Positions 1,820-37,925 of a DNA stretch of 46,209 nt are shown piece by piece (position 1 is the stretch's first letter; each line of letters starts with the position of its first letter). The stretch covers positions 1 to 46,209 of the forward strand of contig JAPLUR010000086.1 of NCBI GenBank assembly GCA_026397505.1, read 5' to 3'. Below the pieces are notes generated by a model. It saw only the letters and a list, made by a program, of their open reading frames with translations. It searched no databases and had not been told where the DNA came from. The translations under genes and the position numbers were made by a program. This stretch comes from Candidatus Zixiibacteriota bacterium. GTDB lineage: Bacteria; Zixibacteria; MSB-5A5; GN15; PGXB01.

Positions 1820-2575
1820 CTAATGAATATGTTTTATCGGGATAGTGTAGCGCGTGTGAAACGAATCACCAAGCTCGATAGTTATCGATTTGGAAAAAGA
1901 TACAGAATCGGCTTCGGGTCTGAAATGAATCATCGCCGCGGCCGAATCGTGCGCCGGGATGGAGCCGGGAAACTGTATTTCGAGAAGAGACGATGGGAAA
2001 TCAACCAGGTCCAGCCAGGCGCGGTGGTCACCTCTGTTGGTTATCAATAACGAAAGGGAATCGCGGGTGTCGTAGGACGGGAGCTCGAATTTCTGCGGCG
2101 TGATCAGCAGGGTCATCTCTGAATTGTCGGCGGCGATGGCATTGGTTGTGATCTGAACGAACGCGGCCGGCCTGGTTGAATCGGCGGCGGTGTAGATAGC
2201 CGGTCGTTTAGTCAAATGACCCTGAAATTCTCCGATGGTGAAAACAATCTCGAGAGCGGCGCTGTCGCCGGGAGGAAGAACCGCCTTGTCCAAAGGCGTA
2301 TAGGTGCAACCTCAGCCGGGATTTATCCGCGTGATACGGAGCGTATCATCGCCGGTTGAATAAAGCCAGAAAGTATGGCTGACGGTGGAAACGGTCGGCG
2401 TGTTACCGAAATTAAAGGTCGAGTCGGGGATACTCAGTTTCGGCCCCACGGGCTGTCGGTTTATGGGCGAGACCGGGGTGTCACCGCATGAGACAATAAA
2501 AACAACTGATATCAGGGCTATGAGAAGCAACCGCCCGCGGCACCGATTGATTTCGCCTGAAAGAGATAGCCTCAC
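1820..2575 (-). CDS. DUF1573 lipoprotein with in-frame UGA; candidate selenoprotein
   Basis: Read through the TGA at 2314-2312, this is one 251-residue protein with selenocysteine proposed at residue 88. The GTG start has AAGGA about 8 nt upstream. Residues 1-30 are a lipoprotein signal (FIVSC lipobox), so the protein is probably membrane-anchored outside the cytoplasm. Residues about 45-130 match DUF1573, an Ig-like ASPM/HYDIN-type fold: a FxFG start, then SHTFWLYSTGDDTLRI, then the position where family members carry C-G-C-T. Here that motif is *-G-C-T. After the UGA the domain continues through LPPGDSAALEIVFTIGEF, and a second Ig-like region runs to the TAG stop at 1820. A stem-loop at 2282-2298 lies where a bacterial SECIS would be. 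Alternative reading: a pseudogene with one nonsense mutation, which is less likely because a second DUF1573 gene has UGA at the same position. Function unknown. Confidence 0.75.
2282..2298 (-). promoter_or_regulatory. Candidate bacterial SECIS hairpin of the DUF1573 lipoprotein
   Basis: In the mRNA, nucleotides 14-30 after the UGA form a perfect 6-bp stem, CGCCUU/AAGGCG, with the 5-nt loop UGGAC. The loop begins 20 nt after the UGA and has G at its second position. Published bacterial SECIS models call for an apical loop roughly 16-37 nt after UGA with a G among its first two bases. Confidence 0.6.
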
Positions 2576-8747: not shown

Positions 8748-9257
8748 ATGAGAAAGCTTTTCATTTTTGCTTTACCACTTCTGGCGGTCGTGCTGATGAC
8801 CTTTTCCAATGGCTATGCGGTCGAACAGACGGCCACCCCGGCACCGTCGGCGCCGAAGGCGCTAAAGAGCCAGACTCTCTGTCCGGTGATGGGGAATAAG
8901 ATCGATACTACGGTCTTTACCGATATTCAGGGGCAGCGGGTATATTTTTGCTGTCCGGGATGTATTTCCAAGCTGAAGGCTAATCCGGATAAGTATTTCC
9001 AGAAAGCGGCCGAGGAAGGTGTCCTGTTTAAGAATATCCAGACCGCCTGCCCGGTAAGCGGCGAGGAAATCGACAAAGCCATATATACCGACTACCAGGG
9101 GCGGCGCATCTATTTCTGCTGCAAAAAGTGCGTGGCTGAGTTCCAGAAATCTCCGGCAAATTTCCTGACCAAGATGGATAAACCGGCCGCTAAAGAAACA
9201 CCGCCGATGAAAGATAGTACCTCCGGCCATATGATGCATGAAGGCATGGGACACTAA
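8748..9257 (+). CDS. Secreted protein with two tandem YHS domains
   Basis: The 169-residue product has a signal peptide (residues 1-24, ending NGYAVEQ). Two YHS-type metal-binding modules follow, at about 45-85 and 98-140. Each has CPV(M/S)G near its start, then a YFCC segment and a second Cys pair (YFCCPGC and YFCCKKC). In the family these cysteines bind metal, probably Cu, Zn or similar. The C-terminal tail HMMHEGMGH is rich in His and Met and may add metal ligands. The start is preceded by AAAGGAG. The next gene carries a third, closely related YHS domain, so the two probably act together in periplasmic metal handling. The exact role is unknown. Confidence 0.85.
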   Translation: MRKLFIFALPLLAVVLMTFSNGYAVEQTATPAPSAPKALKSQTLCPVMGNKIDTTVFTDIQGQRVYFCCPGCISKLKANPDKYFQKAAEEGVLFKNIQTACPVSGEEIDKAIYTDYQGRRIYFCCKKCVAEFQKSPANFLTKMDKPAAKETPPMKDSTSGHMMHEGMGH

Positions 9258-9290
9258 AACTAAGTAGGCAATGAGGAAAAGGCCGTGACC

Positions 9291-10160
9291 ATGAGAAATC
9301 TGGTGAGATATTACCAACCAATCAAGCATCAGTGCAACAGGAAAAGAGCATCTTTTCTCGGTGGTCTCGGCCTTCTTCCGATTTCCAGGTATCTGCGGGC
9401 AAGTTCAAAAATGCCGCTTCCGGCAATATTCTTTTTGCTTGCCTCGCTTGTTTTCTTCTCCTTTCCAGCTCATGCGGAGATCACCAACAGCACCTGTCCG
9501 GTACTGGCCGGTGAGATGGTTGATCAAAATATCTTCACCGATTATCAGGGGAAAAGAGTCTATTTTTGCTGCAACAAATGCCGCAGAGATTTTCTGGCTG
9601 ACCCGGAAAAGTACCTGGCCGGTCTTCCCCAGTTTGCCTCTGTCGTTTCAACCGGCGAAACGGCCGGTAAGGCTGCGGCTGAGACAACCGTGACGGAAGA
9701 ATCAGTGCCTACCCCGCAGAAAACAAGCCCGGTTGCCTTTATCGGTAAATTCCATCCCTTGGTGGTCCATTTCCCGATTGCCCTGACTTTCACGGCTCTT
9801 CTCTTTACTCTTTTTTCAATGATCAAAAGAAATCCACGCTATGAGCTTATTGGTGTTCGAATAATCTATCTTGCGGCGGCTTTTTCGGTACTGTCCGCGC
9901 TTCTCGGGCTGGCCGCAGGCTCCGGCACCGCTTATCCGGCAATTCTCAGGGCTTATTTCCACTGGCACCGGATATTCGGCATTAGTTCGGCCATAATGAC
10001 TCCCGTGGTGGCATTCCTCGCCTTTCAGTTTCAGCGCCGCGAGACTATTTCCCGCCTCTGGCGATATCGGATAGCCCTGTTCGTATTATCTCTCATCATA
10101 GGGGTGACCGGACATCTGGGAGCAACTCTGGTTTATGGCCCCGATTACTTCTCATCATGA
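9291..10160 (+). CDS. YHS domain plus DUF2231-like membrane protein
   Basis: The N-terminal half has one YHS module (CPVLAGEMVDQN ... VYFCCNKCRRDF) preceded by a signal-like helix ending in AHAE. The C-terminal half has about four membrane helices starting with KFHPLVVHFPIALTF, the signature of DUF2231-type membrane proteins. HWHRIFGI in the last third is a further His-containing segment and may bind heme or metal. The start is uncertain. ATG 9291 has AAGG about 8 nt upstream. ATG 9411 would begin exactly at the signal peptide (MPLPAIFFLLASLVFF) but has a weak ribosome-binding site. It lies 33 bp after the tandem YHS gene, probably in the same operon. Confidence 0.8.
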   Translation: MRNLVRYYQPIKHQCNRKRASFLGGLGLLPISRYLRASSKMPLPAIFFLLASLVFFSFPAHAEITNSTCPVLAGEMVDQNIFTDYQGKRVYFCCNKCRRDFLADPEKYLAGLPQFASVVSTGETAGKAAAETTVTEESVPTPQKTSPVAFIGKFHPLVVHFPIALTFTALLFTLFSMIKRNPRYELIGVRIIYLAAAFSVLSALLGLAAGSGTAYPAILRAYFHWHRIFGISSAIMTPVVAFLAFQFQRRETISRLWRYRIALFVLSLIIGVTGHLGATLVYGPDYFSS

Positions 10161-28658: not shown

Positions 28659-28979
28659 TTGGATATTAAAACCCAGGCGCGGCTGGAAGCCCGCGCTGAA
28701 ATCATAAAAGCGATGGCCCACCCGACCCGCCTTTTCATCATCGAGGAGCTTACCCGAAATGAGCGATGTGTCAACGAACTGACCGAAAAAATCGGCGCCG
28801 ATGTTTCTACTGTCTCAAAACATTTGTCGGTCCTCAAGACTGCTGGAATCGTCCGCGATGAGAAACGGGGAGCGCAAGTCTATTACAGTCTGAAAGTCCC
28901 CTGTATCCTGAACTTCTTCGGCTGTGTCGAGTCGGTTTTGAAAACCTCCGCCGAGGAACGATCGGCATTGGTAAAATGA
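28659..28979 (+). CDS. arsR: ArsR/SmtB-family metalloregulator (arsR1)
   Basis: The 106-residue winged-helix protein starts at TTG with AAGGAG upstream. The fold is recognisable from MAHPTRLFIIEELTRNERCV, KIGADVSTVSKHLSVLKTAGIV (recognition helix) and the wing RGAQVYYSL. Possible metalloid ligands are the Cys in ERCVNEL and the two in VPCILNFFGCVE; the CVC pair typical of As(III) sensors is absent, so the ligand set differs from arsR2. It heads the operon with the permease, thioredoxin, DGC, ArsF and ArsG genes. Confidence 0.88.
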   Translation: MDIKTQARLEARAEIIKAMAHPTRLFIIEELTRNERCVNELTEKIGADVSTVSKHLSVLKTAGIVRDEKRGAQVYYSLKVPCILNFFGCVESVLKTSAEERSALVK

Positions 28980-29072: not shown

Positions 29073-30371
29073 ATGGAATGGAAAAGAGAATGGAAACCGT
29101 TGACAATAATTATCGCCCTCTTTTTGGTTTGCTTCTATCTGCCGGTCGGCTCTATCCGCTTTGATAATGCGATAAAGGAAGCACTTTATCTGACCAAATG
29201 GTACGCCCGGGAGCATGTGCTCCTCTGTTTGATACCGGCTTTTTTTATCGCCGGGGCGATTTCGGTCTTTGTCAGTCAGGCCTCGGTCATGAAATACCTC
29301 GGTGCCAAAGCCAATAAGGTTCTGGCGTACGGGGTGGCCTCGGTTTCCGGAACCATTCTGGCGGTCTGCTCCTGCACGGTACTTCCCCTCTTTGCCGGCA
29401 TATATAAGATGGGCGCCGGCCTGGGGCCGGCCACTGCCTTTCTCTATTCCGGCCCGGCTATTAATGTGCTGGCGATAGTTCTTACGGCCCGTGTGTTGGG
29501 GCTTGAAATCGGCATTGCCCGCGCGGTCGGCGCGATTTCATTCAGTATTATCATTGGCCTTCTGATGCACTTCATATTTCGTAAAGAGGAGGCGCAAAGA
29601 GTCAATAATCAGACAGCGCTGCCGCCGGATATAAAATCCCGCGCGCTCTGGAGAACCGCCGTCTATTTTGCCCTGCTGGTCGGAATTCTGGTTTTCGCCA
29701 ACTGGGGCAAAGGAGAATTGCAGACCGGGCTGTACTATATGGTCTATAACATCAAATGGATAATAACAGCGGTACTTGCTCTGATTCTTGGGCTGGTCCT
29801 GATTGTCTGGTTTAAATTGCACTGGTGGAAAGTGCTTCTTACGGTTGCTCCTGCGGCTATTCTGGCGATAATATTTCGGGATCAGCCGATGATACCATTT
29901 GCGGCCGCGGTAATCGGGCTTTCGGTTATCACTTCCACTTCGCAGGGAGAAAGCCGCGACTGGTTTGATGCCACCTGGGGGTACACCAAACAGATCATGC
30001 CGCTGCTTCTTATCGGCGTTCTTCTCTCCGGCGCCTTTCTGGGGCGTCCCGGTCAAGAGGGTCTGATACCCTCCTCATGGATTAGTGCATCGGTCGGCGG
30101 AAATTCGGTCTGGGCCAATTTCTTTGCCTCGATAGTCGGGGCTTTTATGTATTTCGCAACCCTTACCGAAGTGCCGATTCTACAGGGATTGATCGGCAGC
30201 GGTATGGGGAAAGGGCCGGCGCTGGCGCTTCTTCTGGCCGGGCCGGCACTCTCGCTTCCGAGCATGCTTGTCCTGCGAAGCATTATGGGAACAAAAAAGA
30301 CCGTGGTTTATGTGGTTATTGTCGTTATTATGGCGACCATTACCGGATTACTTTATGGCGCTATTTTTTAG
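29073..30371 (+). CDS. ArsP-like permease (DUF318 family)
   Basis: The 432-residue membrane protein has about ten helices. CSCTVLPLFAGIYKMGAGLG near residue 100 carries the conserved Cys-rich core of the ArsP/DUF318 permeases, and FLYSGPAINVLAIVLTARVL follows. Related proteins export trivalent organoarsenicals such as methylarsenite; others are annotated only as permeases. The next gene is a small thioredoxin-like protein, the usual partner of DUF318 permeases. Given the arsR, arsF, arsG and acr3 neighbours, metalloid export is the most likely role. Confidence 0.85.
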   Translation: MEWKREWKPLTIIIALFLVCFYLPVGSIRFDNAIKEALYLTKWYAREHVLLCLIPAFFIAGAISVFVSQASVMKYLGAKANKVLAYGVASVSGTILAVCSCTVLPLFAGIYKMGAGLGPATAFLYSGPAINVLAIVLTARVLGLEIGIARAVGAISFSIIIGLLMHFIFRKEEAQRVNNQTALPPDIKSRALWRTAVYFALLVGILVFANWGKGELQTGLYYMVYNIKWIITAVLALILGLVLIVWFKLHWWKVLLTVAPAAILAIIFRDQPMIPFAAAVIGLSVITSTSQGESRDWFDATWGYTKQIMPLLLIGVLLSGAFLGRPGQEGLIPSSWISASVGGNSVWANFFASIVGAFMYFATLTEVPILQGLIGSGMGKGPALALLLAGPALSLPSMLVLRSIMGTKKTVVYVVIVVIMATITGLLYGAIF

Positions 30372-30384
30372 GAGGATATAGGTT

Positions 30385-30618
30385 ATGAAAAAGCTGCAAA
30401 TTTTGGGGACAGGCTGCCCCAAATGCAAAAAACTGGCCGAGGCCACTGAAGAGGCCGCCTGGGCGCTGGGAATAGAATATCAACTCGAGAAGGTCACCGA
30501 CATCAATGATATTATGGCCTTTGGCGTGATGATGACACCGGCGCTGGTAGTGGACGGCGTGGTCAAAGTGACAGGCAAGGTCCCAAGTGTTGAGGAAATT
30601 AAGAAACTGCTTGCCTGA
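30385..30618 (+). CDS. Small thioredoxin/glutaredoxin-like protein
   Basis: The 77-residue product has the redox motif TGCPKCKK at residues 9-16, a cis-Pro region (MMTPALVVDG) and a final helix (VPSVEEIKKLL), matching the TM0996/MTH895 family of mini-thioredoxins. AGGAGG lies upstream. Such proteins typically sit beside DUF318 permeases. It may reduce or shuttle the metalloid before export. The partner is inferred from position only. Confidence 0.88.
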   Translation: MKKLQILGTGCPKCKKLAEATEEAAWALGIEYQLEKVTDINDIMAFGVMMTPALVVDGVVKVTGKVPSVEEIKKLLA

Positions 30619-30650
30619 GTGCAGAACGATTGATAAGGAGAATAAGCGCT

Positions 30651-31046
30651 ATGAACGAAGAAAAGCCCTGCGCCTGCAGTATTTCGCCAAAATTGATATT
30701 TGCCTGTTCCGGAGCAGCCGACACGGGTGAGATCGCCGACCTGGCCGCGCGCAAACTGACCCGCGATAAGATCGGGACGATGTATTGCCTGGCAGGTATT
30801 GGTGGGAGAATAAGCGGCATAATGAAATCAACTCAGTCGGCCGCCGGCCTTGTGGCTATTGATGGGTGTCCGCTGGACTGCGCCGCCCATACTCTCGACC
30901 AGGCCGGTTTCAATAATTTCAAGCATATCAGAATAACTGATCTGGGGATGATTAAAGGAAAAACCCCGGTCACCGACGATAATGTCGGGCGCGTATATCA
31001 TGAAGTCTCAGAGATTTTAAAAACTATCAGCGAAGGAGTAAAATAA
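30651..31046 (+). CDS. DGC-domain putative zinc-binding protein
   Basis: The 131-residue product starts at ATG 30651 (AAGGAG upstream). It has CACSISPKLIFACSGAADTG near the N-terminus and IDGCPLDCA in the middle, the DGC motif of PF08859 proteins predicted to bind zinc through cysteines. Homologues are common in metal and arsenic clusters next to thioredoxins. The actual metal is unknown. The stop is 2 bp before arsF, so the two are co-transcribed. Confidence 0.85.
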   Translation: MNEEKPCACSISPKLIFACSGAADTGEIADLAARKLTRDKIGTMYCLAGIGGRISGIMKSTQSAAGLVAIDGCPLDCAAHTLDQAGFNNFKHIRITDLGMIKGKTPVTDDNVGRVYHEVSEILKTISEGVK

Positions 31047-31048
31047 GA

Positions 31049-31552
31049 ATGAAACGCAGCTTGATTGTTCTACCAATTTTACTATTGGCTATCGCGCTGA
31101 CCGCTATGACTGGCGCCGATTCCAGCCGTACGGCCGGAATCCCGAAACTTGAGGGGAAACCGGTCGTGCCCGCGGCGGCAACCTCGGATTCATCAAAAGC
31201 TTCCGTGCCGTCGGTGCACCAGGTATTGGCATACTATTTCCATGGAATCCGCCGCTGCTCGAATTGCATTAAGATTGAGTCTTATACCAAGGAGGCCATT
31301 GACAGCGCTTATGGCGCGGCTCTCAAAGACAGCAGTCTTGTCTGGCGAGTGGTTAATACTGATGAGGAGGCCAACAATCATTTTCTCAATGATTATCAAT
31401 TGTACACCAAGTCGGTAGTTCTGGTCGATATGCATGACGGCAAACAGGCACGCTGGAAAAATCTGGAAAAGGTCTGGGAGCATCTTGGCGATAAAGAGGC
31501 CTTTAAGAAATATATCCGTGACGAGGTCGCTCTTTTCATGAAAGTCGATTGA
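31049..31552 (+). CDS. arsF: ArsF-like secreted protein (nitroaryl arsenical reduction)
   Basis: The 167-residue product has a signal peptide (1-23) and the family motif YYFHGIRRCSNCIKIE near residue 70, a CxxC redox pair after RR. The remainder resembles a thioredoxin-like fold (SVVLVDMHDGKQARWKNLEKVW). In Shewanella, arsEFG was reported to reduce and export nitroaromatic arsenicals such as roxarsone; whether that substrate applies here is unknown. It overlaps arsG by one base (TGATG). Confidence 0.8.
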   Translation: MKRSLIVLPILLLAIALTAMTGADSSRTAGIPKLEGKPVVPAAATSDSSKASVPSVHQVLAYYFHGIRRCSNCIKIESYTKEAIDSAYGAALKDSSLVWRVVNTDEEANNHFLNDYQLYTKSVVLVDMHDGKQARWKNLEKVWEHLGDKEAFKKYIRDEVALFMKVD

Positions 31553-32244
31553 TGGATTCAATCCTGATTGCATCAGTTTCGGCTCTCTGGCTGGGAATAT
31601 TGACTTCCATTTCCCCCTGTCCGCTGGCCACCAATATCGCCGCCATATCATTTATCGGGCGGCAGGTCGGCAGAACGGGCCGCATTCTCTTTTCCGGCCT
31701 GGCTTATACACTGGGAAGGATGCTGGCCTATTTGGTTCTGGGGGTCATTATCACGGCGGGGTTGCTGTCCATTCCCGGTCTTTCCAATTTCCTGCAGCGG
31801 TATCTGAATATCATACTTGGCCCGCTCTTAATAATTGTCGGGGTATTTCTTCTTGATATCATTCGCTTCGGCGGTTTCGGAGTGTCATCCGGTGAAAAAG
31901 CCCGAAAATGGGCGGAAAAGGGAGGCGTCTTTGGCGCCGGTTTCATAGGCTTCGTCTTTGCCTTATCCTTATGCCCCGTTTCCGCTGCCCTGTTTTTTGG
32001 AAGCCTTATTCCTCTGGCAGTACAACATAATTCAAAAATTCTGTTACCGTCACTTTATGGAATCGGAACCGGCCTGCCGGTAATCGTCTTCGCTTTCCTT
32101 CTGGCGTTCGGAGCGCAGACAGTCGGAAAGGCTTTCCACAAATTGAGCCATATCGAAAAATGGGTCCGACGTATCACGGGTGTGACTTTCATAATCGTGG
32201 GAATTTATTATTCTCTGATATATATCTTTGGTCTGCCAATATAG
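31552..32244 (+). CDS. arsG: ArsG-like membrane efflux protein
   Basis: The 230-residue protein has about six membrane helices. TSISPCPLATNIAAISFIGR at the N-terminus and ALSLCPVSAALFFGSLIPLA in the middle are the paired SPCPLA/LCPVSA signatures of the ArsG branch of the DsbD/CcdA-like superfamily. These proteins are thought to export aromatic arsenicals or pass electrons across the membrane. The start overlaps the arsF stop. There is no separate arsE; the small thioredoxin at 30385 may fill that place. Confidence 0.85.
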   Translation: MDSILIASVSALWLGILTSISPCPLATNIAAISFIGRQVGRTGRILFSGLAYTLGRMLAYLVLGVIITAGLLSIPGLSNFLQRYLNIILGPLLIIVGVFLLDIIRFGGFGVSSGEKARKWAEKGGVFGAGFIGFVFALSLCPVSAALFFGSLIPLAVQHNSKILLPSLYGIGTGLPVIVFAFLLAFGAQTVGKAFHKLSHIEKWVRRITGVTFIIVGIYYSLIYIFGLPI

Positions 32245-32399: not shown

Positions 32400-32465
32400 G
32401 TAAAGTAGTCGTCTATAAAAGTAGCATTTTGTAATTATAGCATATTGTATGGGGAGACACCGGGG

Positions 32466-33539
32466 ATGACACAACAAATGAAACAGAGACTTTCATTTTT
32501 GGATCGTTACCTTACCCTTTGGATCTTTTTGGGGATGGCTGTCGGGGTTGGCATGGGGTACCTTATCCCCGATATTCCTTCATTCTGGAATCGATTCAAC
32601 GTCGGTACCACCAATATCCCCATTGCGATCGGATTGATACTTATGATGTATCCGCCTCTGGCCAAAGTGCGCTATGAGGAAATGGGGCGGGTGTTCCGGG
32701 ATTTCAAAATTCTGGGTTTGAGCCTGATTCAGAACTGGGTCATCGGGCCGATCCTGATGTTCTTTCTGGCCATAATATTCCTTCCCGCCTACCCCGAGTA
32801 TATGGTCGGACTGATCATGATCGGGCTGGCACGATGTATCGCCATGGTGATTGTTTGGAACGATCTCGCCTCGGGTGATCCGGAGTACGCCGCCGGGCTG
32901 GTCGCTTTCAATTCCATTTTCCAGATTCTCTTATATTCCGTTTTCGCCTGGATATTCGTTACAAAATTGCCGCCACTTTTCGGCCTTTCGGGAGCGTTGG
33001 TTCAGGTGACTATCGGGCAGATCGCCAAGAGTGTCTTTATCTATCTGGGGATTCCGTTTTTGGCCGGTATTATCACTCGATTCGCGCTTATAAATCTGAA
33101 AAACAAAGAGTGGTATCATCAAAAATTCATTCCGAAGATTTCACCGATCACATTGCTCGCCCTTCTCTTTACGATCATTGTCATGTTTTCCCTTAAGGGT
33201 GAGCATATTGTCAAGATTCCAATGGATGTCGTCCGCATTGCCATACCGCTATTAATCTATTTCATTCTAATGTTTCTTGTGAGTTTCTACTTAAGCAAGA
33301 AAGCAGGCGCCGATTATGGCCGGACAACCACATTGTCCTTTACGGCGGCGTCTAATAATTTCGAATTGGCTATTGCGGTGGCGGTGGCGGTTTTCGGCAT
33401 TCACTCGGGGGTTGCCTTTGCGGCGGTTATCGGGCCGCTGGTGGAAGTGCCGGTGATGATTGGTCTGGTCAATGTCGCCCTTTATTTCCGCCGCCGATAC
33501 TTCATGGTTGCGGGAGTCGCGACACAGGAGACAAACTGA
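32466..33539 (+). CDS. acr3: ACR3-family arsenite efflux permease
   Basis: From ATG 32466 (GGGGAG about 9 nt upstream) the product has about 357 residues and some ten membrane helices. Its blocks [29 protein letters not shown] and [17 protein letters not shown] match ACR3/Arr3 arsenite exporters; the Cys in GLARCIAM corresponds to the conserved cysteine of the family. It exports As(III) as arsenite using the membrane potential. Its stop overlaps the arsR2 start (TGATG), so the regulator is translated with it. Confidence 0.93.
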
Positions 33540-33865
33540 TGACAATCGAGCTATTCAAGGGTTTGGCCGAGCCAATCCGATTGCGAATCGCTATCCTGCT
33601 TCTGGATCAGGAATTATGTGTCTGTGATCTTATGGCGGTTCTGAAGTTGCCGCAATCGACGGTGTCCCGGCATATGTCGCGTATGAAAGCATTGGGACTC
33701 GTGATTGATCGTCGCAATGGCAAATGGGTCCATTATCGACTTGACAACTCGCCCCTGGTCAATGAACTGCGAAGCTTTTTAAGACGGAATTACGCCGGTT
33801 TCAATCCATATCGCAATGATTTGAAAATGCTCAAGAAATACATGGCGACCAGTAAGTGTGCATGA
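33539..33865 (+). CDS. arsR: ArsR-family arsenite-responsive repressor (arsR2)
   Basis: The 108-residue winged-helix repressor has the As(III)-binding signature ELCVCDLMAVL, in which the CVC pair is the classic arsenite sensor, and the recognition helix KLPQSTVSRHMSRMKALGLV. It overlaps the acr3 stop by one base. A palindrome over the acr3 -10 (32380-32399) is its likely operator. Regulator after transporter in one operon is typical for autoregulated arsenite efflux. Confidence 0.92.
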   Translation: MTIELFKGLAEPIRLRIAILLLDQELCVCDLMAVLKLPQSTVSRHMSRMKALGLVIDRRNGKWVHYRLDNSPLVNELRSFLRRNYAGFNPYRNDLKMLKKYMATSKCA

Positions 33866-34036
33866 ACTACTGCTGTTTTCATCGAACTGATTAATGACGG
33901 TGATAACATGAGCAAAGGCAAAATATATATGCTCTATGACGTCAGTTGAGAAATAGATTACTTATCCTTATTACTTGCTGAAGAGAGAAAAGCAGAAAAT
34001 ATAGTATTCCAAAATAATTTTCGATTGGAGGTAATG

Positions 34037-34789
34037 ATGTTACGGAAGGTTAGCGTCAGTGCAATTATCATCATTCTTGCGGCCGTCATGGCCTTTGCCT
34101 CCGTGCAGCAGGAGATGGAGTCCGCCGCCGGTGCGGGCAAGGCGGCATTTATTCTAATGTATGACCAGACGGCCATGCAGGTTGAGCAGGCCCGCGAGCT
34201 TATCGCCAACGCAATGGCCAGAGTCCCCGGTTCAGTGAAAATCGAATTTGACCGCAGCGACCCGGCCAATATTGATTTTGTGTCCAAATATGGACTGTCC
34301 GGAGCGCCGGTCCCTCTAATTCTGGTCACCTCCTCGACGGGGATAATCACGGGCGGTCTGATCGCACAGCAAGGGACGGTGGACCAGTTGGTCAAGATGA
34401 TTCCCTCACCCAAGAAAGCAGAAATTATTAAGGCTCTTTCGACGGGGAATGCTGTTTTTATAACAGCTTACCGTAAGAGCATGAATACGGTCGAAACGGT
34501 CAACAGCGCCTGCGCCATGGCTTGCCAGCAAATGGCCGGGAAATCGGTGCAAGTAAAAGTGAATATGGATGATCCGGCGGAAGCAGGCTTTTTGACCGAA
34601 ATGAAAGTTAATATGACTTCCGCCGAACCGGTGACTTTAGTAGCCAATGCTCAGGGTCAGATTGCCGGTATGTATACCGGTGCGATGCAGGTGGCTGACT
34701 TAGTTACGGCTGCCAAAAAGAAGATCGGCGGCTGCTGTCCATCGACCGTTGCCAAGCCCGATGCCTCCTGTGCGCCGGCCAAGAAATAG
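34037..34789 (+). CDS. Secreted Cys-rich protein of unknown function
   Basis: About 250 residues from ATG 34037 (GGAGG 5 nt upstream). A signal peptide ends at AFASVQ. Two similar halves can be seen: GKAAFILMYDQTAMQVEQAR near residue 30 and NAVFITAYRKSMNTVETVNS near 145, each followed by a strand-helix pattern with GAPVPLILV and AEPVTLVAN, like two degenerate thioredoxin folds. The second half has SACAMACQQ, and the C-terminus ends in GGCCPSTVAKPDASCAPAKK with four Cys, a possible metal or metalloid site. It lies 13 bp before an ABC permease gene. A periplasmic binding or redox partner of that transporter is a reasonable guess. Confidence 0.7.
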   Translation: MLRKVSVSAIIIILAAVMAFASVQQEMESAAGAGKAAFILMYDQTAMQVEQARELIANAMARVPGSVKIEFDRSDPANIDFVSKYGLSGAPVPLILVTSSTGIITGGLIAQQGTVDQLVKMIPSPKKAEIIKALSTGNAVFITAYRKSMNTVETVNSACAMACQQMAGKSVQVKVNMDDPAEAGFLTEMKVNMTSAEPVTLVANAQGQIAGMYTGAMQVADLVTAAKKKIGGCCPSTVAKPDASCAPAKK

Positions 34790-34801: not shown

Positions 34802-36022
34802 ATGAGATTGCGAACCATCATCTGGAAAGAACTGTGGCTGAGAAAATCACAGCTTATTTCCGCGTTGCTTGGAATTACCCTGGGCATAGCGGTCATTGTC
34901 GGTATCCAGTCGGTTGCGACGGTATCCGAGAAAGCGGTTAAGGTCAGCCTCGACAACCTGGGCGCCAATATTCTGGTTCTTCCGCAGGCCGCATCGGTGG
35001 ATGATTATTATTCGGCCGATATAGATGCGCCTACTTTCCCGGAAGAATATGTGGAGAGATTGGCGACATCAATGCTTCCCGGTGTTGACAATCTGTCCCC
35101 CAAGTTGACCCGGCGCCTGAAGATAAAGGAAATACCGGTAATCCTGACCGGCATCCTTCCGGCCAACGAGCTGGCATCCAAACCGATCTGGCAAACAGCG
35201 GGACTCATAGGACCCGGCCTCGACCCGGCCTGCGATCCCAAAAATTCAGCCAATCAATCATTTGGATACCAGGATGAACGCCTGCAACGCAAGGCGATTG
35301 ATTCTCTTGCCGTCAATGATATTCTGGTGGGAAGTGTCATTGCTCAAAGACTGAATTTGCGTGAGAATGATATCCTCGAAATGTCGGGGAGATCGTTCAC
35401 GGTAGCTCGAGTCATACCTGAGACAGGGACAATCGATGATAATCGGATATATGCGCACTTGCATACGGTTCAGCAGGCGCTGGGCACAGGTAACCAGGTG
35501 AGTGCGATTGAAATCATGGGATGCTGCTCGGCCATTTCCGACGGGCTTCTGGGCAAGCTCCGGAATATTCTTCCCGATACCCGTATAACCACTATCAATC
35601 AGATTGTCAGCACTCAGATTAAAACCAATCAACTGATGAGCAAGATCTCTCTTGTTTTTCTGGTAATTATTATTCTGGTCGGAGCTATAACCATCGGTAA
35701 CTATATGTGGGCAAATGTCGAAGAAAGACGCCGCGAGATAGGCATTTTGATCACTGTCGGCACACGGCGCTCGATAATATATCGTATGTTCCTGACCAAA
35801 GCCGTCATTCTTGGCCTTGTCGGCGGTATTATCGGATATATCCTGGGTACCGGTTCGGCCATGATACTGGGACCGCAACTTGCCGGGCTAAAGATATCAC
35901 CGGTCCCGATTTACTTGCTCCTGTCAGTTATTGTAGCGGTGCTGATTTCCTTGATGGGAAGTATTTTGCCGGTACGGCGGGCATCGCGGTTCGATCCTGC
36001 TGTCATTATGCAGGAGGTATGA
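34802..36022 (+). CDS. MacB/FtsX-type ABC transporter permease
   Basis: The 406-residue protein has one N-terminal membrane helix, a large periplasmic domain (about residues 45-275) and three C-terminal helices, the MacB/LolE topology. VEERRREIGILITVGTRRS at the cytoplasmic loop and PVRRASRFDPAVIMQEV at the end are FtsX-family signatures. IEIMGCCSAISDGLLGKL in the periplasmic part contains a Cys pair unusual for the family and suggestive of metal or thiol chemistry. It is followed 3 bp later by the ATPase gene. Confidence 0.88.
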   Translation: MRLRTIIWKELWLRKSQLISALLGITLGIAVIVGIQSVATVSEKAVKVSLDNLGANILVLPQAASVDDYYSADIDAPTFPEEYVERLATSMLPGVDNLSPKLTRRLKIKEIPVILTGILPANELASKPIWQTAGLIGPGLDPACDPKNSANQSFGYQDERLQRKAIDSLAVNDILVGSVIAQRLNLRENDILEMSGRSFTVARVIPETGTIDDNRIYAHLHTVQQALGTGNQVSAIEIMGCCSAISDGLLGKLRNILPDTRITTINQIVSTQIKTNQLMSKISLVFLVIIILVGAITIGNYMWANVEERRREIGILITVGTRRSIIYRMFLTKAVILGLVGGIIGYILGTGSAMILGPQLAGLKISPVPIYLLLSVIVAVLISLMGSILPVRRASRFDPAVIMQEV

Positions 36023-36025
36023 TCG

Positions 36026-36700
36026 ATGTATATCATCAAGAATCTGAGCAAAATATACACCGGCCGGCATGGGACAATCCGCGCTCTGGATAATGTATCT
36101 CTTACGATAGAACGGGGAAGTTTTGTAACCGTCACCGGCGGCTCCGGGTCGGGTAAGACAACTCTGCTTCTTGCACTGGGCGGTCTCAATCATCCCACCA
36201 GCGGTTCTATAACTTATGAAGAAAAGAATGTGTATTCATTGCCCGAGCCGAGATTGGCCGAATATAGAAACAAAAATGTCGGCTTTGTTCTTCAGACTTT
36301 CAATTTGATTCCATACCTGTCGGCGCTTGAGAATGTCATGCTGCCGATGCTATTTAATGCCGAAAGAAACGGTAACGCTCAAGCCTCGGCTTTAGGATTG
36401 CTGCAGAAGCTGGGTCTTGAAGACCGAAGGGCGCATCTGCCGCGTGAACTCTCGGTGGGACAGCAGCAACGGGTTGCGATTGCCCGTGCTCTTGCCAACA
36501 GTCCCGATGTGATTCTGGCGGATGAACCGACGGGTAATTTGGATCCTAACCTGTCGCTTGAGATACTGAAAATATTGAAGAATCTAAACGATACGGAAGG
36601 CATGACCATTATTATGGTCACGCACAGCCCGGAGGCGGCCAAATTTGGAAATAGACAGCTTCGCCTGAAAGACGGTAGAATTGAAAACGGGTCAAACTAA
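36026..36700 (+). CDS. LolD/MacB-type ABC transporter ATPase
   Basis: The 224-residue nucleotide-binding subunit has Walker [17 protein letters not shown], the Q loop [18 protein letters not shown], signature [19 protein letters not shown], Walker [13 protein letters not shown] and the switch His in MVTHSPEA. It is the partner of the FtsX-type permease 3 bp upstream. Exporters of this type move lipoproteins, peptides or drugs, or act as mechanotransmitters. The DUF1573 gene starts immediately after it. Confidence 0.93.
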
Positions 36701-36701
36701 T

Positions 36702-37925
36702 ATGGCAAAAAAAAATAAGAAAAGAATTAAGCAAACAGACGCAACTGCTTCAAAGATTGGCAAACAAATGCCGTCCACCGTTCCGAAACAGCAAGTCAAG
36801 CATAGGCGCTATGCCATCTGGTCGATAAGCGGTCTTATGGCTGTCGTAGCGGTAGTTGTGGCATGGATGGTTTTTCAGAATATATCGCATAGCTCGTCCG
36901 AATCCGCCTCGATAAATCAATTACGAGCTGCGACACCGGGCGCAAAATCGGGAACTGACAGTACTAATGTATCCGGCGGACCACAAATTAATTTTCCAGA
37001 GACAAGTTACGATTTTGGGACCATAGCCCAGGGATCGAAGGTTTCGCATACGTTTGTTGTACGGAATGCCGGGGATGCGCCCTTACGACTGATCAGGGCT
37101 GCGGGTTCGTGAGGCTGTACGGCGGCCGTGCTCACAAACACGGATATTCCCCCGGGTGGGGAAGGAAAAATCGAAGTTACCTTTGACACCAGTCATAAAA
37201 GGGGCCGGCAGAATAAGTCAATTACCGTTGAATCGAATGATTCTCGGAATCCGCGCGCGTTATTGAATGTCTCGGCCCTCGTTGAGATCGTGTTTGGTTT
37301 CGAACAATACAACCTTGATATGGGAAAGATTCGTAAGGGACAGTCTGTTTCAAAGACAGCAACTCTGCTCGTAAAAGACCCATCAATAATCAAGACCATT
37401 AGATTTACTTCATCGTCGTCATATATAACGGCTAATCTGGCAAAAAGTCCCGCCGAACCCGGGGCAGAGAAGGGGCGTCTTAATGTCGAAGTCTCGGGAA
37501 CTTCGGCGATGCCCGTCGGCCGCATCAGTGCGACGATCACCGCTCGCGCCGGCGATCGTTCTGTATTGGAAGCCACTTTGCAGATTATCGGTGCCGTGAC
37601 AGGCGATGTCGACATTTCGCCGGAAACGGTGCGATTCTTTATGGATACATTGAAAAACGACTCCAAGTTTGCGAAACAAACAATCAGGGTAACCAGCAAC
37701 GTTGATGAGGCGCGGCTGCATCTCCTGGATATAAAGGATGCAGACCAAAGGCTTACCTTTCATATCGATACTTTACGAGCCGAAAAGCAGTACGAAATAT
37801 CCATGACCCCAAAGTCAACGGCGCTCGGTGCCAGGCAAAATGTGACTGGATCTGTTACAATCACTACCGACGACAAGGATCGGCCGGTGACATCGGTGCC
37901 TTACAGTATCATTTTTGGCCCTTGA
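36702..37925 (+). CDS. Membrane-anchored DUF1573 protein with in-frame UGA; candidate selenoprotein
   Basis: Read through TGA 37110-37112, the frame gives 407 residues with selenocysteine proposed at residue 137. ATG 36702 is preferred; a TTG at 36681 lies inside the ATPase gene. Residues 1-40 are basic, 44-64 are a membrane helix (YAIWSISGLMAVVAVVV) and the rest should be periplasmic. Residues about 95-185 are DUF1573: FPETSYDFGTIAQGSKVSHT, FVVRNAGDAPLRLIRAAGS, then *-G-C-T where the family has C-G-C-T, then DIPPGGEGKIEVTFDT. Further Ig-like repeats fill residues 190-407. A hairpin 14-31 nt after the UGA (37126-37143) may be the SECIS. The frame, codon use and domain continue normally after the UGA. 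The gene follows the ABC genes by 1 bp. Pseudogene is the alternative. Confidence 0.78.
37126..37143 (+). promoter_or_regulatory. Candidate bacterial SECIS hairpin of the DUF1573 membrane protein
   Basis: Nucleotides 14-31 after the UGA form CCGUG-CUCACAAA-CACGG, a perfect 5-bp stem with an 8-nt loop. The stem starts at the same offset (+14) as in the other DUF1573 gene. The loop lacks a G in its first two positions unless the closing G-C pair opens, so the match to the model is weaker here. Confidence 0.45.

Follow-up and report, generated by a model that had tools for sequence, protein, structure and literature searches.

Bacterial selenoproteins with a DUF1573 domain (pfam07610) have been described before. 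OS_HP2, with a UxC motif, was reported in the Global Ocean Sampling (GOS) survey (Zhang & Gladyshev 2008, PMC2398784), and two reviews give the motif of these proteins as 'UGC' and cite a Nucleic Acids Res 2007 paper as the first report of OS_HP2 (PMC9312934, PMC13188914). The element that directs selenocysteine (Sec) to a UGA codon, the Sec insertion sequence (SECIS), is hard to define in bacteria, where atypical examples escape the published tools (PMC13188914, PMC12013277). The bacterial SECIS (bSECIS) model has 16–37 nt from the UGA to the apical loop, a loop of 3–9 nt with G in the first two positions, a stem of 4–16 bp and an energy of −7.5 or lower; atypical elements exist (PMC13188914). 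The subject here is the long form of a Sec-DUF1573 gene (36702–37925, forward strand) in a contig of Candidatus Zixiibacteriota bacterium (JAPLUR010000086.1, assembly GCA_026397505.1), positions 1–46,209 of which are called the window. It very probably encodes a member of the known DUF1573/OS_HP2 selenoprotein family, probably decoded with the help of two hairpins; the protein is predicted to present a U-G-C motif in the periplasm and is a putative partner of ArsE, ArsF and ArsG. A preliminary description of the locus had proposed a new selenoprotein for which no description was known; this was wrong, since Sec-DUF1573 (OS_HP2) is already in the GOS survey, in both reviews and in the NCBIfam entry NF041425, which lists an OS_HP2 (seleno)protein. 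What is new is the decoding element and the link to arsenic.

The reading frame opens at ATG 36702 and encodes 407 residues, with Sec as residue 137 of a U-G-C-T motif. The only internal TGA of the frame (37110–37112) is codon 137, and the frame terminates in a further TGA (37923–37925). The frame is open after the internal TGA, as had been noted, and the 271 codons originally counted there are 270 sense codons and the stop. One DUF1573 domain runs across the TGA, as had also been proposed: the Pfam model (PF07610) gives a single unbroken match to residues 96–187 (36987–37262), with U137 and C139 inside it, at 108.7 bits against a gathering threshold of 26.1 (E 1.5e-31). With U entered as C, the NF041425 profile scores 99.8 bits (E 8.5e-29; curated cut-off 100), and the U-G-C motif occupies the Cys position of that family.

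Relatives were sought in 132 genomes of the Candidatus Zixiibacteriota class, where matches at E < 1e-50 were taken as the long form. There are 16 such genes, and all 16 have exactly one internal TGA, in the same column. Within one GTDB family (f1), 24 homologues were aligned: C/U137 and C139 are invariant, and residue 137 is encoded by UGA in 14 and is Cys in 10, which agrees with the earlier placing of the TGA at the first Cys of a C-G-C-T motif. Among three long orthologues from f1, amino-acid identity is 61–66% just past the TGA and 60–67% just before it; divergence past the TGA is coding-like, third positions varying most. Because the 16 long homologues share the column, and similarity with codon-like divergence runs past it, the TGA is not there by chance. 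A scan of GTDB genomes found 67 loci, of which 56 read U and encode the peptide IPPGGEG at the expected distance; these come from Zixibacteria, several lineages of Deltaproteobacteria, Myxococcota (including Enhygromyxa salina) and one CSSED10-310 metagenome-assembled genome. IPPGGEG was itself the search pattern, so the scan is biased toward that peptide, and some of its contigs are shared with the class search. The peptide also occurs in Cys homologues, from Ratteibacteria (L112) and Lewinellaceae (L122). An initial scan of genome contigs with a single protein as the query had recovered no relatives.

The host genome (3.4 Mb, a draft assembly) encodes the machinery for Sec, i.e., tRNA-Sec (71.9 bits against a cut-off of 47, anticodon tca), selA (484.6 bits), selD (394 bits, with one in-frame TGA) and selB, which is split, its N-terminal part lying beside selA near a contig end and its C-terminal part on another contig. 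The SelD of the host is itself a selenoprotein (CAGUASK; L014/L053, G000:C122:8398-9324), and a small hairpin with a GUU loop, judged by eye, lies about 22 nt from its UGA. Co-occurrence of selA with UGA-containing DUF1573 genes was dropped as evidence; it is uninformative because selA was found in 119 of the 132 genomes of the class and the genomes without it are mostly incomplete. Sec at residue 137 is thus, on the sequence data, almost certain: the Sec genes of the host, the alternation of UGA and Cys in one column, the TGA shared across phyla and a Sec-specific RNA element downstream all strongly support the selenoprotein proposed in the preliminary description.

The downstream element probably consists of two hairpins. 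The apical, SECIS-like hairpin (UUCCCC-CGGGU-GGGGAA, 37147–37163, forward strand) has a loop at 37153–37157 that starts 40 nt past the UGA (37112 to 37153). In all 16 long Zixibacteria genes it is the same, UUCCCC-CGGGY-GGGGAA, the sole variable base being the third of the loop codon GGY; synonymous sites are invariant throughout AUU CCC CCG GGY GGG GAA, codons +12 to +17 from the UGA. Ile ATT, Pro CCC, Pro CCG, Gly GGG and Glu GAA are fixed in 16 of 16 genes (z about −9 to −18), whereas the mean z elsewhere is about 0. The hairpin has been kept in other phyla, nearly letter-for-letter across several, and related apical stems occur in deltaproteobacterial genes, many of which are shorter by one codon. 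The short Sec paralogues of f1 have quite different letters in the same register (GCUGUC-GGY-GACAGC, 13 of 13), and 9 of the 10 Cys relatives in f1 have no hairpin of that type. Support for the apical stem comes from synonymous invariance and from the different stem that the short paralogues have in this register. The tenth Cys relative (L045/L051, G011:C50) lies beside a Sec paralogue and keeps a Sec-type hairpin with a GGA loop, likely as a relic of a recent replacement of Sec by Cys.

Between the UGA and the apical hairpin lies a spacer hairpin (CCGUG, 8 nt, CACGG; 37126–37143, forward strand), the letters of which are variable and the structure of which is kept across homologues. When compared with synonymous shuffles, its mean z is −2.05 in 26 Sec genes (all 26 below 0), −1.96 in 20 further Sec genes (19 of 20 below 0) and −1.08 in 12 short ones; in 30 Cys homologues it is −0.11, and in control regions about 0. 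Synonymous sites speak for both hairpins in Sec genes and for neither in Cys homologues. The pair 21–39 joins two third-codon positions, and in 30 deltaproteobacterial genes it occurs as GC (13), UA (7), CG (4), GU (2) and AU (1). Its covariation score of 0.246 compares with 0.118 for shuffled data, a control that ignores relatedness, and with at most 0.113 when the pairing is slid. RNAalifold on the long group returns the apical stem and a short false stem only, missing the spacer hairpin because the register of that hairpin shifts among genes. Folding out the spacer hairpin (18 nt; 21 nt in the deltaproteobacterial group) leaves about 22 nt (18 nt in that group); the hairpin may serve to restore the distance from the UGA to the apical loop. 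The codon before the UGA (37107–37109) is Ser TCG; all 15 of the Zixibacteria long forms that have Ser at this position use TCG (synonymous z about −20); no structure explaining the invariant TCG was found, and it is possibly an effect of UGA context.

The protein is predicted to have an N-terminal membrane anchor followed by three Ig-like domains. In an AlphaFold model built with 15 sequences (mean predicted local distance difference test score 80, predicted template modelling score 0.58), a transmembrane helix spans residues 35–61 (36804–36884), as the sequence also suggests, and beta-sandwich domains follow, with U137 placed between strands 130–135 and 139–143. The model bears out, at the level of prediction, the membrane-anchored periplasmic protein that had been proposed at the outset. 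Foldseek matched the model to generic Ig-like and ASH-type proteins; the TM-scores are low, as the domains are flexibly joined and their arrangement differs. The search found no catalytic fold, and the beta-sandwich model has no thioredoxin fold around the U/C motif. In the PDB, the only match by sequence was a weak one (2qsv, a protein of unknown function). A U-x-C pair is able to form a selenenylsulfide, which is plausible for U-G-C here, and the motif may be a periplasmic selenenylsulfide redox site or a metalloid-binding site.

Upstream, on the same strand, lies an arsenic-resistance gene cluster. In order, it has an ArsR/SmtB-like regulator (28659–28979, translation judged by eye), an ArsP_1 permease (29073–30371, family match), an MTH895/ArsE-family thioredoxin-like protein with the motif GTGCPKCK (30385–30618; 113 bits against a cut-off of 62), a DGC-domain protein (30630–31046, family match), an ArsF-family protein with a CSNC motif (31049–31552; 109 bits against 60), the DsbD-like membrane protein ArsG (31549–32244; 287 bits against 200), an ACR3 arsenite efflux transporter (32445–33539; 456 bits against 282.8) and an ArsR/SmtB-family regulator (33539–33865, family match), so that arsE, arsF and arsG are encoded together. 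Closer to the Sec-DUF1573 gene are a predicted secreted protein of 254 residues with a Cys-rich C-terminus (GGCCPS...CAPAKK; 34025–34789, no family match), a MacB/FtsX-type ABC permease (34802–36022, family match) and a LolD/MacB-like ABC ATPase (36026–36700), which ends 1 nt upstream of the Sec-DUF1573 gene and likely shares an operon with it. A partnership with the ABC transporter was considered and rejected: FtsX/MacB genes adjoin this gene and lie near one short paralogue, but not beside most relatives. The DUF1573 copies of the host genome at G000:C63 (L049) have MacB/FtsX transporter genes and an M20 peptidase gene nearby. Elsewhere in the window, two adjacent YHS-domain proteins (8748–10157; one YHS/TRASH metal-binding, one YHS with DUF2231) mark another metal-related spot.

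Five Zixibacteria genomes (G000, G090, G092, G096 and G123), which span four families (f1, f9, f10 and f18), have arsF and arsG on the same contig as the long form and no more than about 5 kb from it, often together with arsP, arsC and acr3. In G090 and G092, arsF and arsG are directly upstream of it; arsC adjoins it or is one gene off in G090, G092 and G123, and acr3 follows in G092 and G123. The arsG gene is present in 65 of the 132 genomes of the class; of the 14 genomes that have the long form, 11 carry it. As ArsG is DsbD-like, a route for electrons from cytosolic ArsE via ArsG to periplasmic ArsF, the Sec-DUF1573 protein or both would, by analogy, be a natural one.

That the TGA is a true stop in a pseudogene, or a miscalled Cys codon, has next to no probability and is in effect refuted: the assembly is a draft in 147 contigs, but the same TGA stands in all 16 long homologues and in 56 loci from independent assemblies, divergence downstream is like that of coding sequence, and the host has the Sec machinery. 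Nor is it at all probable that UGA is reassigned throughout the genome or read leakily as Trp or another amino acid. The frame is indeed open after the UGA, but the same gene terminates in UGA, the site is occupied by Cys rather than Trp in homologues, and hardly any match to selA across the class contains a TGA. Several points weigh against the two-hairpin element: the apical loop, at 40 nt, falls outside the spacing of the bSECIS model; base pairs of the apical stem scarcely vary within groups, and counting pairs cannot prove it; in a plain thermodynamic folding test the UGA region of the window, taken by itself, does not stand out (z 0.12); and three Sec homologues have no clear apical hairpin. 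One of the three is the second Sec-DUF1573 gene of the window, a short form with the motif PGUGCT (1820–2575, reverse strand; in-frame TGA 2314–2312), the decoding element of which must therefore differ from the hairpin of its relatives. An Rfam search of the Sec-DUF1573 loci gave no SECIS match. Tandem DUF1573 clusters can mix UGA and Cys forms (L050, G007:C31; L051, G011:C50; L052, G013:C1; L021/L034, G014:C45). It is also conceivable, though unlikely, that in a genuine selenoprotein gene the spacer hairpin is the target of SelB and the apical hairpin serves for pausing or stability, as the loop of the spacer hairpin is within the 16–37 nt range and its stem is backed by covariation. Two hairpins acting together in decoding remain the probable arrangement.

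There is close to an even chance that the role of the protein is unrelated to arsenic, i.e., that it is an Ig-like envelope protein for general redox, metal binding or assembly, and that its place in an ars cluster is incidental. Most relatives lie outside ars clusters (G011, G012 and others, including those in Myxococcota and deltaproteobacterial loci), genomes have several paralogues, Foldseek gives generic Ig-like folds only, and the nearest upstream neighbours are the ABC permease and ATPase; however, the five Zixibacteria genomes, of four families, keep the gene beside arsF and arsG, three of them with arsC adjoining or one gene off. An arsenic-related function is accordingly given here as a tentative proposal.

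In the mechanism proposed here, the UGA would be decoded as Sec by SelA, SelB, SelD and tRNA-Sec of the host; the apical hairpin, with its loop bearing GGY 40 nt past the UGA, is likely the site for SelB; and the covarying hairpin before it would fold up the extra length, leaving about 18–22 nt. A membrane-anchored string of Ig-like beta-sandwiches would present U-G-C in the periplasm, likely as a selenenylsulfide for thiol/selenol redox or metalloid binding. In this genome the protein would work with ArsE, ArsF and ArsG, where the DsbD-like ArsG could carry electrons across the membrane. The widest form of the proposal joins two claims: that there is a distinct class of bacterial SECIS common to Sec-DUF1573 genes from several phyla, with a conserved GGY-loop hairpin at about 40 nt and a spacer hairpin restoring the canonical distance, and that the Zixibacteria protein is a working part of a trans-membrane ArsE-ArsF-ArsG system for arsenical redox; that both hold is possible but rather doubtful. 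The decoding element is of interest as it is nearly letter-for-letter the same across several phyla and off the spacing rule, yet has a structural reason why it could work, and the two-hairpin mechanism is directly testable. The known reach of Sec-DUF1573 is widened, and arsenic redox is a concrete lead for some of its members.

To our knowledge, no ArsEFG system with a selenoprotein has been described, and a literature search, with subscription papers mostly outside its reach, found no paper linking the two, no description of a SECIS for DUF1573/OS_HP2 and no link of that family with arsenic. The locus is like other ArsEFG and ars operons in having ArsE, ArsF, ArsG, ArsP, ACR3 and ArsR as neighbours, and unlike them in having a selenoprotein gene in the cluster. 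The Ig-like domains of HYDIN, VesB and ASH proteins are of the same fold class as the Sec-DUF1573 protein; we know of no C/U-G-C site in them. The apical hairpin resembles the bSECIS model in its 6-bp stem, its 5-nt loop (CGGGU) with G second, its energy of −8.6 kcal/mol and its position in coding sequence after the UGA, but an extra covarying hairpin between the UGA and the apical hairpin sets the element apart. Like OS_HP2 of the Olavius symbiont and the GOS survey, the protein has a DUF1573 domain, a U-G-C motif and Cys homologues; unlike OS_HP2, the Zixibacteria protein is a long form with three domains and a predicted transmembrane anchor, and its gene has ars genes close by in several genomes.
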